The position numbers and the translations under genes were made by a program. Source: Catalinimonas alkaloidigena (lineage in GTDB: Bacteria > Bacteroidota > Bacteroidia > Cytophagales > Cyclobacteriaceae). Taken from it: 64,000 nt of DNA. The stretch's first letter is position 1. Each line of letters opens with the position of its first letter. The notes under the pieces were generated by a model. The model was not told the DNA's origin. It saw only the letters and a list, made by a program, of their open reading frames with translations, and ran no database searches. The stretch spans positions 2,299,001 through 2,363,000 of the forward strand of contig NZ_JAQFIL010000001.1 in the NCBI RefSeq assembly GCF_029504655.1, read 5' to 3'. Below, piece after piece: positions 10,915 through 17,020 of the stretch.

Positions 10915-11241
10915 ATGAGTAAACCCGTTGAACTTACCGATTCTAATTTTGACGAAATGATCAACGCAGGCGATAAGCCGGTTTTAGTTGATTTTTGGGC
11001 AGAATGGTGTGGACCATGTAAAATGATTGCTCCCGTTGTAAATGAGTTAGCTGAAGACTATGATGGGAAAGCAGTAATCGGTAAGGTAGATGTAGATTCA
11101 AATCCAAGTATCTCAGCTAAGTATGGAATTCGTAGTATTCCTACTTTATTGGTATTTAAAAATGGAGAAATTGTTGATAAGCAGGTAGGTGCTGTTAATA
11201 AAGGAGTATTAGCCCAAAAGCTTGACGCACAACTTGCATAA
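10915..11241 (+). CDS. trxA: Thioredoxin
   Basis: General protein-disulfide reductant; also electron donor for peroxiredoxins and APS reductase, both encoded in this window. 108 residues with the classical WAEWCGPCKM active site (Cys pair in WCGPC at about residues 31-35) and the cis-proline segment SIPTLLVFKNGE. It is followed by the sulfite reductase leader region; no strong terminator separates them, but that region has its own promoter. Confidence 0.96.
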   Translation: MSKPVELTDSNFDEMINAGDKPVLVDFWAEWCGPCKMIAPVVNELAEDYDGKAVIGKVDVDSNPSISAKYGIRSIPTLLVFKNGEIVDKQVGAVNKGVLAQKLDAQLA

Positions 11242-11278
11242 TAATAAAAGGACAAATCATTTTGTTTTTCCTTGCTTA

Positions 11279-11309
11279 TTTGATTCTTCAAAATTCTATT
11301 GTATTTTTG
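11279..11309 (+). promoter_or_regulatory. Promoter of the sulfite reductase leader
   Basis: TTTG at 11279-11282, a 19-base spacer, then TATTTTTG at 11302-11309, an exact TAnnTTTG. This is among the best matches in the window to the Bacteroidota consensus. Transcription would begin around 11312-11316, about 30 bases before the leader ORF and 270 before the structural gene. Confidence 0.65.
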
Positions 11310-11341
11310 AATTATAAGTAATCAATAACTACTTTTATTGT

Positions 11342-11482
11342 ATGATTGGTAGCCTTTCAAAGACAAACAGTAAACTTACAGCAGCACAGCGTCGTGCTTG
11401 CTGGTTTTGGTGTTGTATGTTGTCTTTCAACCTGGAAGGCTTACTATGTACTATTAACAATACTTCAGATAATAAACCTTAG
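11342..11482 (+). CDS. Cys/Trp-rich leader peptide (attenuator ORF)
   Basis: ATG at 11342 opens a 46-codon ORF ending with TAG at 11480. Cysteines are at residues 20, 24, 25 and 36 and tryptophans at 21 and 23; the core reads ACWFWCCM. Both amino acids are normally rare, so the cluster is striking. The ORF starts about 30 bases after a strong promoter, runs through the RNA pairing segments described in the next entries, and stops before a terminator in front of sulfite reductase. That position and composition are those of an attenuation leader peptide. Under cysteine shortage ribosomes should stall at codons 20-25. It is seen in one genome only; conservation is untested. Confidence 0.68.
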   Translation: MIGSLSKTNSKLTAAQRRACWFWCCMLSFNLEGLLCTINNTSDNKP

Positions 11483-11526
11483 TATTTTATTTACAAAGGT
11501 TCAGCTACATAGATTACAAGCCTTCC
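11351..11526 (+). promoter_or_regulatory. Competing RNA pairings of a transcription attenuator
   Basis: Segment A (11351-11356) pairs with 11436-11441. Inside that stem, 11359-11365 pairs perfectly with 11421-11427, and 11379-11387 folds with 11394-11403 over the first Cys codons. Alternatively segment B (11434-11442 and 11444-11450) pairs with segment C (11518-11526 and 11506-11512), a 9 bp plus 7 bp antiterminator. C also forms the 5' arm of the terminator. A ribosome stalled at Cys codons 24/25 would disrupt A:B but leave B free for C, allowing read-through. Pairings were found by eye; no energies were computed. Confidence 0.62.
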
Positions 11527-11553
11527 CCACTTAATTTAGGGAAGGCTTTTTTT
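11518..11553 (+). terminator. Leader terminator in front of sulfite reductase
   Basis: Ten-base perfect stem: 11518-11527 (AAGCCTTCCC) with 11539-11548 (GGGAAGGCTT), an 11-base loop, and a run of T's to 11553. It lies 29 bases before the structural gene start, so it can only act on transcripts from the leader promoter or trxA. Its 5' arm is shared with the antiterminator. Confidence 0.85.
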
Positions 11554-11582
11554 ATGATTCAAAAATCTCAAAATTAATATCC

Positions 11583-13709
11583 ATGCAAAGTTTCCGTACA
11601 GAAATTGAAAATCCAGTCGTTGAAAAAGACATCATTGAGCTGGAAAAAAAGATCAGGTTGTTTCGTGTAGGTAATATTGATGAAGATCGCTTTCGCAGCC
11701 TGCGGTTAGCCAGAGGAGTGTATGGGCAGCGCCAGCAGGGCGTACAAATGGTGAGAATCAAAATTCCTTTTGGTAGACTTACTGTCCCTCAGATTCGGCG
11801 TGTCGCTGATATAGCAGATGAGTATGCCAATAGTAACATCCACCTTACTACACGACAAGACATACAAATTCACTTTGTAAGCCTGGATAGAACACCCGAG
11901 CTTTGGTCTGAATTAGAGCAGGATAAGTTGACATTAAGAGAAGCTTGTGGAAATACTGTGCGGAATGTAACGGCTTCAGCTAAGGCAGGCATTGATCCTA
12001 ATGAACCTTTTGATGTATCACCTTATGCACAGTCAATTTTTGAATATTTCCTCCGTAATCCGGTTTGTCAGGAAATGGGGCGTAAATTTAAAATCGCGCT
12101 CTCATCCAGCCAAGAAGATTCTGCCTTTACATTTATCCATGATATCGGTCTAATTCCCAAGGTCAAAGAAGTGGATGGAAAGGAGATAAGAGGCTTCAAA
12201 GTACTCATTGGCGGAGGTTTGGGAGCTCAGCCCCATATGGCTGAAGTGGCCTCAGAATTCATGGAAGAGGATAAAGTTATTCCGTTTACCGAATCAGTAT
12301 TAAGAGTATTTGACAGACATGGAGAGCGTAATAAGCGGGGAAGAGCGAGAATGAAATTCTTAATGAAGAGTATTGGCGCTGAAGAATTGATCAGGTTAGC
12401 TGGTGAAGAGCAAAAAAGCTTGAGAGCTCAATCCGTCAAAGTAGACAGAGATTTGATCCCTGAACAGGTGCTTCCAAAAAATAATGATTTTGGCCCAGCT
12501 ACTATTTCTGATGAGCGTAAATACGCGCTTTGGAAAACTACCAATGTGTTTCCTCAAAAACAGGAAGGGTATTATGGAGTTCATATCAAACTGCCATTAG
12601 GAAATATCCTTTCCGATAAAGCCCGTAAATTTGCTGATATCGTAGAAAAATACGCAGCGGATGATGTGCGTATCACGGTGAACCAGGGCTTCCTGTTGAA
12701 GTTTCTGACAGAAGATGCACTACCACACCTCTTTAATGCCCTGCATGAAATTGATCTGGCCGAACCCGGCTTTGACAGTACTGCTGATGTGACTGCCTGT
12801 CCGGGAACTGATACGTGTAATCTGGGGATTTCAAATAGTACGGGTGCCTCAAATCGTATTGAGCAACTGATACGTGCCGAGTACCCAGAACTGGTTAAGA
12901 ACAATGACATTAAAATCAAAATTAGTGGCTGCCCTAATTCATGCGGACAACATGGTATTGCAAGCATTGGCTTTCATGGTAGTTCTATGAAAGATAAAAA
13001 TAAAAATGTATTACCGGCACTACAGGTACTGTTGGGTGGCGGCGTAGATGGCAATGGTGAAGGGCGTATTGCTGAAAAAATAACGAAAGTACCCAGTAAA
13101 AAAGTAGATGAAACCATGCGGGTACTACTGGATGATTACGAAGAAAATGGGAATGATGGAGAGTATTACGCTGATTACTATCTGCGTCAGGGTAAAATGT
13201 ATTTCTACCATCTTTTAAAGCCATTGACTGATTTGGAGAGCCTGAGTCCTGAAGATTATAAAGATTGGAAGCATGAGCATGAAGAAGAGGCTTTTAAGGT
13301 AGAAGCAGGAGTTGGTGAATGTGCGGGCGTGGTGATTGACCTTATTCAGACACTCATTGTGGAAGCAGAAGAGAAATTGGAAAGTGCTTTAGAGAATTAT
13401 CAGGGAGGAAACTATGCAGATGCTATTTACAATGCATACAGTGGATTTGTGATAGGAGCTAAGAGTCTTCTTTTGTCTGATGATAAAAACCCCAACAATC
13501 AGATGAATATTATCAAAGAATTTGATAAGCACTATGTAGAAAGTGGTAAAGTGAATTTAGATTCTTCTTTTGAAGCGTTAGTTCTACAGATAAGAGACTA
13601 TGAACCTACAGAGGCTTTTGCAAAAAACTATATTGCAGCTTCTGAATCCTTTTTGACTTTGGTAAAAAAGCTTCGCGAGCAGCAGTTAAACAGCAAGGTA
13701 CATGCTTAA
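11583..13709 (+). CDS. Siroheme sulfite (nitrite) reductase with C-terminal HEPN-like domain
   Basis: Assimilatory reductase delivering sulfide (or ammonia) by six-electron reduction. Two ferredoxin-like plus siroheme repeats fill residues 1-560. The 4Fe-4S/siroheme ligands are all present: Cys406 and Cys412 in TACPGTDTCNLGI, Cys450 and Cys454 in SGCPNSCGQHGIA. From about residue 575 an added all-helical tail contains AIYNAYSGFVIGAKSLLL, which resembles HEPN domains; I see no clear RxxxxH nuclease motif. Neighbouring cobA, cysH and metZ argue for sulfite over nitrite. Expression is probably controlled by the leader at 11312-11582. It overlaps cobA by 8 bases. Confidence 0.9.
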   Translation: MQSFRTEIENPVVEKDIIELEKKIRLFRVGNIDEDRFRSLRLARGVYGQRQQGVQMVRIKIPFGRLTVPQIRRVADIADEYANSNIHLTTRQDIQIHFVSLDRTPELWSELEQDKLTLREACGNTVRNVTASAKAGIDPNEPFDVSPYAQSIFEYFLRNPVCQEMGRKFKIALSSSQEDSAFTFIHDIGLIPKVKEVDGKEIRGFKVLIGGGLGAQPHMAEVASEFMEEDKVIPFTESVLRVFDRHGERNKRGRARMKFLMKSIGAEELIRLAGEEQKSLRAQSVKVDRDLIPEQVLPKNNDFGPATISDERKYALWKTTNVFPQKQEGYYGVHIKLPLGNILSDKARKFADIVEKYAADDVRITVNQGFLLKFLTEDALPHLFNALHEIDLAEPGFDSTADVTACPGTDTCNLGISNSTGASNRIEQLIRAEYPELVKNNDIKIKISGCPNSCGQHGIASIGFHGSSMKDKNKNVLPALQVLLGGGVDGNGEGRIAEKITKVPSKKVDETMRVLLDDYEENGNDGEYYADYYLRQGKMYFYHLLKPLTDLESLSPEDYKDWKHEHEEEAFKVEAGVGECAGVVIDLIQTLIVEAEEKLESALENYQGGNYADAIYNAYSGFVIGAKSLLLSDDKNPNNQMNIIKEFDKHYVESGKVNLDSSFEALVLQIRDYEPTEAFAKNYIAASESFLTLVKKLREQQLNSKVHA

Positions 13710-14493
13710 TCAAGAATATGTAAAACCTCGTTTATCATTGGTTGGTGCAGGCCCCGGAGACCCTGAGTTAATCACACTTAAGGGTATTCGGGCCTTAGAA
13801 ACCGCAGATGTAGTGCTCTATGATGCGCTCGCAAATGATGAACTTCTCAAGTATGTTCCTGAAAATGTTCCACGTATTTATGTTGGGAAACGAGCAGGTA
13901 GCCACAGAGTTGCTCAGGAAGATATCAATAGGCTGATAGTAAGCTGTGCACGTCAGTATGGTCATGTAGTGCGTCTTAAAGGAGGTGATCCTTATATTTT
14001 TGGTAGAGGACATGAAGAGCAAATCTATGCTGAACAAGCAGGTATAGCCGTATCGCTGGTACCTGGTATCAGTAGTGTTAATGCTGTGCCTGCATTACAA
14101 TCCATACCACTAACGCGTAGAGGGCTGAGTGAAAGTTTTTGGGTAATTACTGGTACTACTCGTAAAGGCACTATTTCCAATGATGTAAGGCTGGCTGCAC
14201 AATCTTCAGCTACCATCGTCATTCTAATGGGCATGTCTCGGATTGAGGAAATTCAACAGACTTTTTTAAGTTTTGGTAAAGCTGATACTCCGGTTGCAAT
14301 AATTCAAAATGGCTCTATGCCTGATGAGAGGGTAGGAGTATCAAATGTTCGTGAGATGAAAACAATGGCTGCTGAAACCGGGCTGGCTTCACCCGCAGTG
14401 ATTATCATTGGGGAGGTTGTTGCTTTGCATCCTGCTCACATTGCTGAAGCAGTAAAAAGAGAGCTTGCCCTTAAGGCAGAAATGCATTCCTGA
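13702..14493 (+). CDS. cobA: Uroporphyrinogen-III C-methyltransferase (SUMT)
   Basis: Adds two methyl groups from SAM to uroporphyrinogen III, giving precorrin-2, the precursor of siroheme. 263 residues, a stand-alone SUMT rather than a CysG fusion. Family signatures: VGAGPGDPELITLKG near residue 15, VRLKGGDPYIFGRG near 95 and VPGISSVNAVPA near 120. Its start overlaps the sulfite reductase end by 8 bases, so the enzyme and the first committed enzyme for its siroheme cofactor are coupled. No precorrin-2 dehydrogenase/ferrochelatase is visible nearby. Confidence 0.94.
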   Translation: MLNQEYVKPRLSLVGAGPGDPELITLKGIRALETADVVLYDALANDELLKYVPENVPRIYVGKRAGSHRVAQEDINRLIVSCARQYGHVVRLKGGDPYIFGRGHEEQIYAEQAGIAVSLVPGISSVNAVPALQSIPLTRRGLSESFWVITGTTRKGTISNDVRLAAQSSATIVILMGMSRIEEIQQTFLSFGKADTPVAIIQNGSMPDERVGVSNVREMKTMAAETGLASPAVIIIGEVVALHPAHIAEAVKRELALKAEMHS

Positions 14494-14533
14494 TAACTGA
14501 TTAACCAATTTTTTTTAAAACTAAATATTTGCT

Positions 14534-14578
14534 GTGTACAGTTAGCAAAACTGTATACATACAACAGCTATGCATAGC
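14534..14578 (+). promoter_or_regulatory. Two palindromes upstream of cysH (possible operator)
   Basis: First dyad: 14534-14543 pairs with 14549-14558 (10 bp, one G:U) around five bases. Second: GCTATGCATAGC at 14567-14578 is a perfect 12-base palindrome. Both lie 60-105 bases before the cysH start. The symmetry suggests binding by a dimeric regulator; no known consensus is matched. Confidence 0.4.
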
Positions 14579-14637: not shown

Positions 14638-15339
14638 ATGATAAGTTGGGAAAATAATTTATTTGATCTAAAGCATCAGGATCACATAGATCGTTTGAAT
14701 GCTATTTTTCGCTCAATGTCTCCGGAAGAAAGGATTAAAGCTATGTATAGCAATAAGTCACTAATGGAGAAAAATGTCATCCTGACTTCTTCTTTTGGCA
14801 CTACAGCAGTTTATCTTTTGCACCTTTATTTCAAAATGAATATTAAGCAGGAGGTATATTTTCTGGATACGTCATTTCATTTTGATGAAACCTTGATGTA
14901 TAAGCATAAGCTTACTCAAATGTTTGATTTGAATGTAAAAGAATTATTTCCGGAAGACTGGAAAAATAAATTTACCAGAGAAAATGAAGTGTGGAAAACT
15001 GACCCTGACCTGTGCTGCTCGGTAAACAAAGTTGAACCTATGTTGCAGATCAAGCAGAAGGCAGATATTTGGGTCTCAGGCTTAATGAGCTGGCAAAATG
15101 ATCACCGCCAGAATCTGGATATCTTTCAATGGAAAGAGGGGACACTTAAGTTTTATCCCATTATAGATGTGAAAGAAGATGAGGTGAAAAATTATTTGGC
15201 AAAATGGTCATTACCAGTTCATCCACTAAAACCTCTAGGTTATGAATCGATCGGCTGTAAACATTGTACTTTTAAAGGTAGGGGTAGGGCAGGACGCTGG
15301 TCGGGGAATGCCAAAACCGAATGTGGATTGCATCAGTAG
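14638..15339 (+). CDS. cysH: APS reductase (phosphoadenylyl/adenylyl-sulfate reductase)
   Basis: Reduces adenylyl sulfate to sulfite and AMP using thioredoxin. 233 residues. The catalytic cysteine is Cys229 in the C-terminal ECGLH motif. Cys126-Cys127 (DLCCSVNK) and Cys207/Cys210 (GCKHC) supply the four 4Fe-4S ligands that mark the APS-using rather than the PAPS-using type. SSFGTTAVYLLHL is the nucleotide-binding loop. It is separated from cobA by 144 bases containing two palindromes, so it may have its own promoter. It feeds the sulfite reductase encoded upstream. ATP sulfurylase genes are not in the window. Confidence 0.94.
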   Translation: MISWENNLFDLKHQDHIDRLNAIFRSMSPEERIKAMYSNKSLMEKNVILTSSFGTTAVYLLHLYFKMNIKQEVYFLDTSFHFDETLMYKHKLTQMFDLNVKELFPEDWKNKFTRENEVWKTDPDLCCSVNKVEPMLQIKQKADIWVSGLMSWQNDHRQNLDIFQWKEGTLKFYPIIDVKEDEVKNYLAKWSLPVHPLKPLGYESIGCKHCTFKGRGRAGRWSGNAKTECGLHQ

Positions 15340-15405: not shown

Positions 15406-16593
15406 CTAATGCACGGTAGACTTTGCAATGGCCTGCTTCAGGTCTGCTTTGATATCCTCAGTGTGTTCTAAACCAACAGATAAACGAATGAGCCCCGGTG
15501 TAATGCCTACAACAGCCCTTTCTTCATCAGAAAGTTTAGAATGAGTTGTAGAAGCAGGATGAGTACAAATGCTACGGGTATCACCTAAGTTGGCAGTAAG
15601 TGAGAGCATTTTTAGCGCGTTTAAAAAACGCTTTCCTCTATCTAGTCCACCTTTTAATTCAAAAGTAAGAATACCTCCTCCTAGTCGCATTTGTTTTTTT
15701 GCGAGTTCATATTGAGGGTGAGAGGGCAGTAACGGATACTTTACACTTTCTACTTCCTCCTGCTCTTCCAGCCAGCTTGCCAAATCCAGTGCATTGGCAC
15801 AGTGTTTTTCCATGCGTACCGCCAGTGTCTCCAGACTTTTGGATAGAATCCATCCATTAAAGGGGGACATGGCTGGGCCGGTATGTCTTGCCATAAATTT
15901 GACTTCTTTTATGAGCTCTTTACTTCCTAACACCGCTCCACCTATCGTCCTTCCCTGACCATCTATGAATTTGGTAACCGAATGAGTAACAATATGGGCG
16001 CCCCATTGAAGTGGGTTTTGTAAGTAAGGTGTAGCAAAACAGTTGTCAACGTTCAGCAAAAGCTTGTATTTTTCCGCCAACTTTCCCAACCACTCCAAAT
16101 CCAGCAAATCCAAACCGGGATTAGAAGGTGTTTCCACAAAGATCATCTTGGTATTATCCCTAATCTGGGCTTCCCATTCTTCAGGATGATGAATGTCAAC
16201 ATAAGTATGGGAGATTCCCCAACGGGGTAGTAGTTGCGTCAGGATTTGGTGGGTAGAGCCAAATAAAGAGCGTGAAGCCAGCACGTGATCACCAGTTTTT
16301 AAAAAAGAGGCAATACTGATAAACATAGCGGCCATACCCGATGCGGTAGCTATGCCTGCTTCTGCACCTTCTAACGCGCACAGTTTCTCAATAAACTCAT
16401 CATTATTGGGATTTGAGAAGCGGGTATAAATATTACCTTGAATTTCGTCAGCAAACATGGCACGAGCCTGTTCTGCGTCTTCAAATACAAAACTGGAGGT
16501 AGCAAATATTGGCACGCTGTGCTCACGATGTTGAGACCGCTCAGCCTGAGTTCTGATGGCTTCTGTCTCAAAATGACGTTTATGATCTGCCAT
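15406..16593 (-). CDS. metZ: O-succinylhomoserine sulfhydrylase
   Basis: PLP enzyme that joins sulfide to an activated homoserine, making homocysteine for methionine. 395 residues, the length of the Cys/Met metabolism PLP family. The PLP lysine lies in THSVTKFIDGQG, with the preceding NVDNCFATPYLQNP block; ETPSNPGLDLLDL and RLSVGLEHTEDIKADL are family signatures. The QGRTIGGAVLG segment and overall similarity favour MetZ over cystathionine synthases; O-acetylhomoserine use cannot be excluded. It lies 10 bases after osmC and uses the sulfide made by the neighbouring reductase. Confidence 0.9.
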   Translation of the reverse strand: MADHKRHFETEAIRTQAERSQHREHSVPIFATSSFVFEDAEQARAMFADEIQGNIYTRFSNPNNDEFIEKLCALEGAEAGIATASGMAAMFISIASFLKTGDHVLASRSLFGSTHQILTQLLPRWGISHTYVDIHHPEEWEAQIRDNTKMIFVETPSNPGLDLLDLEWLGKLAEKYKLLLNVDNCFATPYLQNPLQWGAHIVTHSVTKFIDGQGRTIGGAVLGSKELIKEVKFMARHTGPAMSPFNGWILSKSLETLAVRMEKHCANALDLASWLEEQEEVESVKYPLLPSHPQYELAKKQMRLGGGILTFELKGGLDRGKRFLNALKMLSLTANLGDTRSICTHPASTTHSKLSDEERAVVGITPGLIRLSVGLEHTEDIKADLKQAIAKSTVH

Positions 16594-16603
16594 AGTGATT
16601 TGG

Positions 16604-17020
16604 TTATGATTTTACCTGAAAGCTATATGATATTTCGGCAGTTTTTTCTAATATTTTAGCAACAGAGCAGTATTTGTCAAGAGAAAGGTCAATGGCTCTT
16701 TTAACCTTACTTTCATCAAGGTTTCCATGAAAGATGTATTCAAGGTGAATCGTTTTAAAAAGTGATGGTGTTTCTCCTTCGTAGCGCGTAGCTTTAATAT
16801 TTACATCAATGTCATGAACCTGCTGTCTCTGCTTTTTTAGAATATCTAATATGTCTATGGTGCTGCATCCACCAATTCCGGAAAGCAATAACTGCATAGG
16901 GCGCATTCCTTTATTTTGTCCTCCTACATCGGGGCTGGAGTCCATGTGAATGCTGACGCCATTCTCATTTGTGGCTTCCATATGAAAAGCATCGTTTAGC
17001 CTTTTAATTTTTATCTGCAT
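16604..17020 (-). CDS. OsmC family protein
   Basis: 138 residues with the OsmC/YhfA signature: GMRPMQLLLSGIGGCSTIDIL with the first redox cysteine and DKYCSVAKIL with the second. OsmC/Ohr proteins reduce organic peroxides by these two cysteines; the YhfA-like subgroup often sits with sulfur genes and its role is less clear. It is the first gene of an apparent osmC-metZ operon and is divergent from the rhodanese gene, across 88 bases that must hold both promoters. Confidence 0.87.
   Translation of the reverse strand: MQIKIKRLNDAFHMEATNENGVSIHMDSSPDVGGQNKGMRPMQLLLSGIGGCSTIDILDILKKQRQQVHDIDVNIKATRYEGETPSLFKTIHLEYIFHGNLDESKVKRAIDLSLDKYCSVAKILEKTAEISYSFQVKS

Follow-up and report, generated by a model that had tools for sequence, protein, structure and literature searches.

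A probable cysteine-codon transcription attenuator upstream of a sulfite reductase–siroheme operon in Bacteroidota

Leader, competing pairings and genes at the locus

The window, a 64-kb stretch of the 7.9-Mb genome of Catalinimonas alkaloidigena (G000), carries a siroheme-dependent sulfite/nitrite reductase family gene preceded by a short, Cys-containing leader ORF (Table 1). No NCBIfam equivalog matched the sulfite reductase gene at cut-off, and its assignment comes from Pfam domains. Its nearest relative among the named loci fetched is L138, from a Cyclobacteriaceae metagenome-assembled genome (MAG), at 67% identity, and the only same-genus genome met is G752 (locus L221). Upstream, trxA runs on the leader's strand and stops at 11241, and between the two lies an exact match to TTTG-N19-TAnnTTTG, which we take to be the Bacteroidota −33/−7 promoter consensus. 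In alignments read by eye, the motif stands at the same position in both L138, where it is exact, and L221, where one base differs. Between the siroheme gene and cysH, nested inverted repeats (GCTGT..ACAGC and TACAGTT..AACTGTA) occupy 14531–14568, and none were seen by eye in the matching gap of G752. Further downstream (15406–17020, minus strand), an O-succinylhomoserine sulfhydrylase-like gene and a second gene, presumably OsmC-like, converge on the sulfite reductase operon, a gene order also found in G752. The cysC–cysD locus of the same genome has no Cys leader of this kind.

Table 1. Features of the leader and of the genes that follow it, in window coordinates
Feature	Positions	Strand	Basis or remark
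Promoter, Bacteroidota −33/−7 type, TTTG-N19-TATTTTTG	11279..11309	+	Exact TTTG-N19-TAnnTTTG match
Leader peptide ORF, 46 aa, MIGSLSKTNSKLTAAQRRACWFWCCMLSFNLEGLLCTINNTSDNKP	11342..11482	+	ORF list; has homologues in L221 (same genus), in L138 and at further loci
Segment A, pairs with B (11433–11441)	11351..11359	+	Pairing tested in nine CWxWCC leaders
Small hairpin, just 5′ of and overlapping first core Cys codon	11381..11401	+	Local fold −7.8 kcal/mol
Putative regulatory codons TGC TGG TTT TGG TGT TGT (Cys-Trp-Phe-Trp-Cys-Cys)	11399..11416	+	Codon table, 11 leaders of CWxWCC type
Segment B, partner of A or C	11433..11442	+	Starts 16 nt past last core Cys codon
Second antiterminator helix, 5′ arm	11444..11450	+	CTATGTA; partner 11506–11512
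Second antiterminator helix, 3′ arm	11506..11512	+	TACATAG
Segment C, terminator 5′ arm	11518..11527	+	Fully complementary to D
Segment D, terminator 3′ arm	11539..11548	+	10-bp stem with C
T-run of intrinsic terminator	11547..11553	+	First two T's inside stem
Siroheme sulfite/nitrite reductase family gene (NIR_SIR domains), C-terminal HEPN domain; putative regulated gene	11583..13709	+	Pfam PF01077, PF03460, PF05168
Uroporphyrinogen-III C-methyltransferase (siroheme synthesis), overlapping sulfite reductase gene	13702..14493	+	TIGR01469 above cut-off
PAPS/APS reductase (cysH), candidate member of same transcript, 144 nt past methyltransferase gene	14638..15339	+	NF002537 above cut-off

Cysteine codons stand at positions 20, 24, 25 and 36 of the 46-codon leader ORF. 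Cys36 was considered as a regulatory codon and set aside, because it is absent from L221 and L138, and only the Cys codons of the CWFWCC core are taken as regulatory. The leader peptide has no Pfam or NCBIfam match up to E 0.1, and hence no DUF2946 domain. A hairpin is predicted in the stretch matching 11381–11401 in 10 of 11 folded leaders, with differing bases, in predicted folds made without a shuffle comparison.

Downstream of the core, segments A to D offer three pairings that are mutually exclusive within 11279–11582, and A:B, B:C, C:D and the second antiterminator helix all lie where an earlier, sequence-only reading had placed them. The A segment (AGCCTT, 11351–11356) pairs with AAGGCT at 11436–11441, a helix that extends to 11351–11359/11433–11441, and B (11434–11442) is fully complementary to C (11518–11526). 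From the end of the T-run to the ATG at 11583 there are 29 nt, again as had been read, and from the end of the stem to the gene 34 nt. In shuffles that keep base composition only, A:B has p=0.003, and none of 200 mononucleotide shuffles of the stretch between the Cys codons and C gave C a partner as good as B (p=0.002 when 500 were made). An inner stem proposed in the same reading (11356–11366/11420–11430) is present in the window but, by eye in the alignment, is not intact in the two closest relatives, L221 and L138, which keep A:B; we therefore set it aside.

Folding with alternative states gives a divided answer to the proposed switch. With the ribosome on the Cys codons and D unmade, B:C reaches a probability of 0.99, in agreement with the proposal; with no ribosome and RNA extending to 11535 (D unmade), B:C stands at 0.88 against 0.13 for A:B. 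Once D is made, however, A:B and C:D have a probability of 1.0 in all three ribosome states, the stalled one (Cys codons masked) included. Equilibrium folding by itself gives no switch, and the order of synthesis and the position of the ribosome must therefore decide. In other attenuators, too, these are held to set the outcome. Here A:B could form before C exists, and B:C before D, so that the kinetic order would determine which pairings prevail. When 17 leaders were folded to just past B, without a control set, B paired with leader bases 5′ of the Cys codons or inside them at mean probabilities of 0.35–1.0. In the predicted folds, some core bases are themselves paired within the A:B hairpin.

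Recurrence and covariation of the leader architecture

Sulfite reductase homologues (E≤1e-100) occur in 114 of 241 genomes of the order. We fetched 80 named loci; the unfetched matches are G072 (contig edge), the partial matches G133, G187, G192 and G031:C117, and the second piece of G186. A set of 193 upstream regions was reduced to 186 unique ones by dropping L086, L183 and L050, along with four whose last 200 nt repeated another's. The gene start was taken as the match start, which lies 9–14 codons inside the query for many matches and 37–61 codons inside it for G117, G082 and G069. Among short ATG ORFs (8–60 aa, within 500 nt of the gene), CCC occurs in 28 of the 186 regions, against none on the antisense strand and an average of 0.6 across ten dinucleotide shuffles; CWxWCC occurs in nine, against none in either control, a count that leaves out L140, whose leader lacks an ATG start. 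Runs of the other 19 amino acids show no comparable enrichment in the same 186 regions, and Cys-run leaders are, by these counts, strand-specific. Bacteroidota-like sulfite reductases were also met in MAGs labelled Beijerinckiaceae (Pseudomonadota) and Ignavibacteriales (L183, L161), a matter of misbinning or transfer.

Two kinds of leader stand out. Poly-Cys leaders occur at named loci of Pedobacter, Mucilaginibacter, Pontibacter, Botryobacter, Reichenbachiella and Rhodocytophaga, and leaders of the CWxWCC type in the window, L221, L138, L140, G068 (twice), G047, G102, G141, G014 and G031. The second leader in G068 (CWFWCC; L050 / L262:1578-1694) is followed by a terminator and stands before a separate PAPS reductase (cysH) gene, an indication that its use within a genome is not confined to a single sulfur gene. 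Searched across 395 genomes of the phylum, the pattern CWFWCC gave matches in 8, only the window having a leader of this kind, with one match for the reversed-pattern control. A first CWxWCC-type search returned 17 places, of which seven are leaders (control 0), and CW[F/Y/H/L]WCC returned 67 (control 10), comprising nine leaders, 50 places judged by context to be chance, and eight unclassified (G760, G683, G719, three in G745 and two in G695). In a tree of 109 sulfite reductases with a midpoint root, ten CW-bearing genes fall into one 23-row group (support 97/84) together with two poly-Cys rows and eleven rows without an assigned leader. The tree fails to show a single origin of the CW label because three changes are needed.

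The arrangement of the segments recurs beyond the CWxWCC type. For 47 hand-picked Cys leaders from 41 loci, including the near-duplicates L011/L012, L068/L080 and L021/L024, a terminator precedes the next leader or gene in 31; the 16 with none by the criteria used include the CWxWCC leader L042. Of these 31, 21 have a segment B complementary to the terminator 5′ arm at p≤0.05, 19 of them also at p≤0.02, and in all 21 it starts 4–16 nt past the last Cys codon, just ahead of the position of a stalled ribosome. The other ten, without a significant B, are L019 (CWxWCC; first terminator p=0.23), L072, L083, L108, L132, L148, L151, L192, L203 and the second leader of L032. A similar test was passed by 10 of 81 terminators in 146 leaderless regions, a control that differs in using a fixed 80-nt interval, the terminator nearest the gene and 300 shuffles. 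Lower-Cys ORFs (for example L178, L179, L194, L156, L168 and L171) were excluded from the 47 and their regions stayed in the control set, and some of the ten passing controls may be attenuators whose leader escaped the Cys filter, such as L179, with an ORF containing CCYMC. The attenuator architecture first read in the window is thus found again with poly-Cys leaders of other sequence.

Several loci carry more elaborate arrangements. Two Cys leaders stand in series upstream of the sulfite reductase in L013, L032, L215, L022, L151 and L152, and in L013 and L032 each has its own terminator, which suggests tandem attenuators. In L068, L080 and L083, the first leader, at roughly −416 to −267 relative to the gene, carries RPxAHHSCCM; a perfect terminator hairpin comes next and a poly-Cys leader after it. 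RPxAHHSCCM leaders are possibly a third conserved type of Cys-leader peptide. The pattern RPxAHHSCC, with Ser as TCN only (L083 has AGT), gave no match in 380 genomes of the order, the three known carriers included, and two places in 315 genomes of the class, counts that carry no weight for the spread of the motif. Between their single CWxWCC leader and the gene, L011, L012 and L019 (in G047, G102 and G141) have two successive terminators with similar C and D arms.

According to the sequence-only reading, B:C and C:D arms that neither covary nor persist in relatives would have spoken against its proposal. In eight CWxWCC leaders (L012, L019 and L042 being outside this set) the arms of both helices are kept, with compensatory changes. 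C:D pairs in 80 of 80 cells, a figure partly built in because the ten-base arms were chosen by eye to pair; three columns show double changes, and shuffling partners between species gave as good a result in 3 of 5,000 trials. B:C pairs in 68 of 80 cells, with shuffles as good in 274 of 10,000 (ten pairs) or 160 of 10,000 (seven pairs). Column B3–C8 is G-C in four leaders and A-U in the other four, and D3 follows, which amounts to a joint change in B, C and D. The third claimed pairing, A:B, also recurs: B's best partner was sought 24–75 nt before the core of nine CWxWCC leaders, with a combined p of 6.1e-7, or 2.9e-6 for the eight loci without L221. The best A partner ends 33–46 nt before the core. 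Single-locus p values run from 0.003 to 0.58, five of nine being below 0.05; L138, L005, L050 and L137 are individually above it.

A cysteine-sensing reading and its alternatives

The locus combines a short Cys-enriched leader, an intrinsic terminator before the first gene, an antiterminator on the terminator 5′ arm and a protector hairpin, as expected of an attenuator. The promoter motif, leader and three pairings, with their recurrent geometry, their covariation and the target genes, are established by sequence and comparison, and on this footing we consider cysteine-codon, ribosome-mediated transcription attenuation of the sulfite reductase–siroheme operon highly likely. We infer that charged tRNA-Cys is the signal, that the leader is translated and that termination and read-through follow. 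A ribosome would translate the leader behind RNA polymerase and, with charged tRNA-Cys plentiful, would pass the CWFWCC codons so that A:B could reform behind it, leaving C free for D and stopping transcription before the sulfite reductase gene. With charged tRNA-Cys scarce, it would stall at the Cys codons and break A:B, exposing B, 16 nt downstream, to capture C before D is made, and transcription would continue through the genes for sulfite reductase and siroheme synthase, and perhaps through cysH. The bacterium thus very probably switches on sulfur assimilation when cysteine is short.

What a plain count of Cys codons does not call for is the constancy of the leader peptide. In the 11 CWxWCC-type leaders, Arg is kept at −3 in all 11 (codons CGT, CGA, CGC and AGA), and Lys at −9 and Ala at −6 in ten each by codon-level reading, positions that played no part in finding the leaders; the middle core residue is Phe in nine, Tyr in one and His in one. 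The core is all-or-none, with nine full copies and no partial one (CWxW without CC, or WxWCC without C) in the 186 upstream regions. A protein collection holds 17 homologous peptides with CW[FY]WCC; they were found by shared words, a route that favours the core, and P0001 and P0003 at least are leaders already counted here. The CW-bearing genes also keep to one tree group, with end branches of up to 0.99, and CruR offers a known case of a Cys-motif nascent uORF protein that senses copper (in the relevant passages of PMC9426467). These points would suit an arrest peptide, in which nascent RCACW[F/Y/H]WCC stalls in the exit tunnel, or its Cys cluster responds to a thiol, sulfide or metal, and it would be the stall, not uncharged tRNA-Cys, that sets the switch. 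We regard this as unlikely, as plain Cys runs in varied contexts in other clades, many with the same B/C/D logic, point to Cys codons. Moreover, the constancy of the core is partly circular, since part of the set was found by searching for the core itself (L005, L011, L019, L138 and L140 came from Cys-cluster scans instead), and the third base of the core codons hardly varies either, which, with the pairing of the core inside the A:B hairpin, means that RNA constraint may explain some of it. The conserved RCACW[F/Y/H]WCC core nevertheless appears to be more than Cys-codon counting needs, Trp and Arg conservation being unnecessary for sensing Cys-tRNA. A role of the nascent peptide may lie behind it, or else the pairing of core bases within the A:B hairpin. 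That RCACW[F/Y/H]WCC leaders form a new regulatory nascent-peptide family, in which an aromatic-interleaved Cys core acts in the exit tunnel or detects a thiol, sulfide or metal, whose switch reads more than tRNA-Cys charging and of which the poly-Cys leaders of other clades are the codon-only version, is a tentative idea to which we give limited credence.

Two further explanations dispense with translation of the leader. If the terminator merely ended the trxA transcript, the ORF and complementarities would be fortuitous; trxA does end upstream on the same strand and a terminator scan lists none between it and the leader, a silence that is weak because the scan covers loops of 3–8 only and also misses the terminator at 11518. 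The consensus-like promoter between trxA and the leader, in the same place in L221 and L138, the 34 nt left between stem end and gene, and the shuffles, covariation and recurrence, which argue against chance pairing, make this explanation very improbable. The structured 5′ leader before a sulfur gene could suggest a riboswitch or a protein-bound RNA leader, such as a SAM-type element. The sequence-only reading had matched it to no riboswitch consensus, and Rfam agrees, with no match at gathering thresholds in the 64-kb window; relaxed thresholds gave 12 sub-threshold matches in 11250–11620, the lowest E being 0.043 (GcvB, 19 bits against 42 needed). The feature common to the leaders is instead a reading frame with Cys codons, followed by B after 4–16 nt in 21 of 31, and we think a riboswitch or protein-bound leader scarcely credible.

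Relation to known systems and significance

The classical amino-acid attenuators are the trp, his and leu leaders of Proteobacteria. Shared with them are a leader rich in the cognate amino acid, alternative hairpins and an intrinsic terminator before a biosynthetic operon, whereas here cysteine would be sensed, the target is a sulfite reductase and the host belongs to Bacteroidota; the long A:B hairpin spans the regulatory codons, and B lies 37 nt before the leader stop codon. Closer in the amino acid, polycysteine short ORFs before mycobacterial cys operons have reportedly been described by Canestrari et al. in 2020. Mycobacterial Cys-codon ORFs before cys operons were also predicted in a source that, in the relevant passages, notes no conserved terminator hairpins and suggests Rho (PMC1262725). 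As far as those passages go, both systems place a Cys-codon leader before sulfur assimilation genes, and the one described here differs in its intrinsic terminator and antiterminator. If polycysteine is read as a run of at least three Cys codons, the window leader has none, CWFWCC having one CC pair, although other Bacteroidota leaders do. In Rhodobacterales, uORFC-8-2 before cysS likewise has tandem Cys codons in a short uORF and then a U-run consistent with an intrinsic terminator, but its target is cysteinyl-tRNA synthetase, its phylum is another, and the passages concerned describe no CWxWCC core (PMC8632094). CruR, a DUF2946 protein with CXXC and RAPP motifs, shares control of downstream transcription by a Cys-motif nascent peptide, in its case through Rho-dependent termination (PMC9426467); the window leader matches no Pfam family, lacks a RAPP motif and is followed by an intrinsic terminator. 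Likely leader-peptide attenuation is mentioned in general terms, in the parts concerned, by transcriptome papers on Flavobacterium psychrophilum and Bacteroides thetaiotaomicron, with no tie to cysteine. Among the matches listed from open-access full text, a scope outside which most subscription papers fall, there was no report of a Bacteroidota cysteine attenuator, and the string CWFWCC returned one unrelated paper. The element thus appears, by comparison of sequences, to work like a ribosome-mediated transcription attenuator, and its sensed amino acid, target, phylum and leader family together set it apart as a new form of that kind.

If this reading is right, cysteine-codon attenuation with a full intrinsic-terminator switch would be a recurrent control of assimilatory sulfite reduction in Bacteroidota, and the CWxWCC core, beside the plain poly-Cys leaders of other clades, would offer a natural comparison of codon-based and peptide-based stalling.
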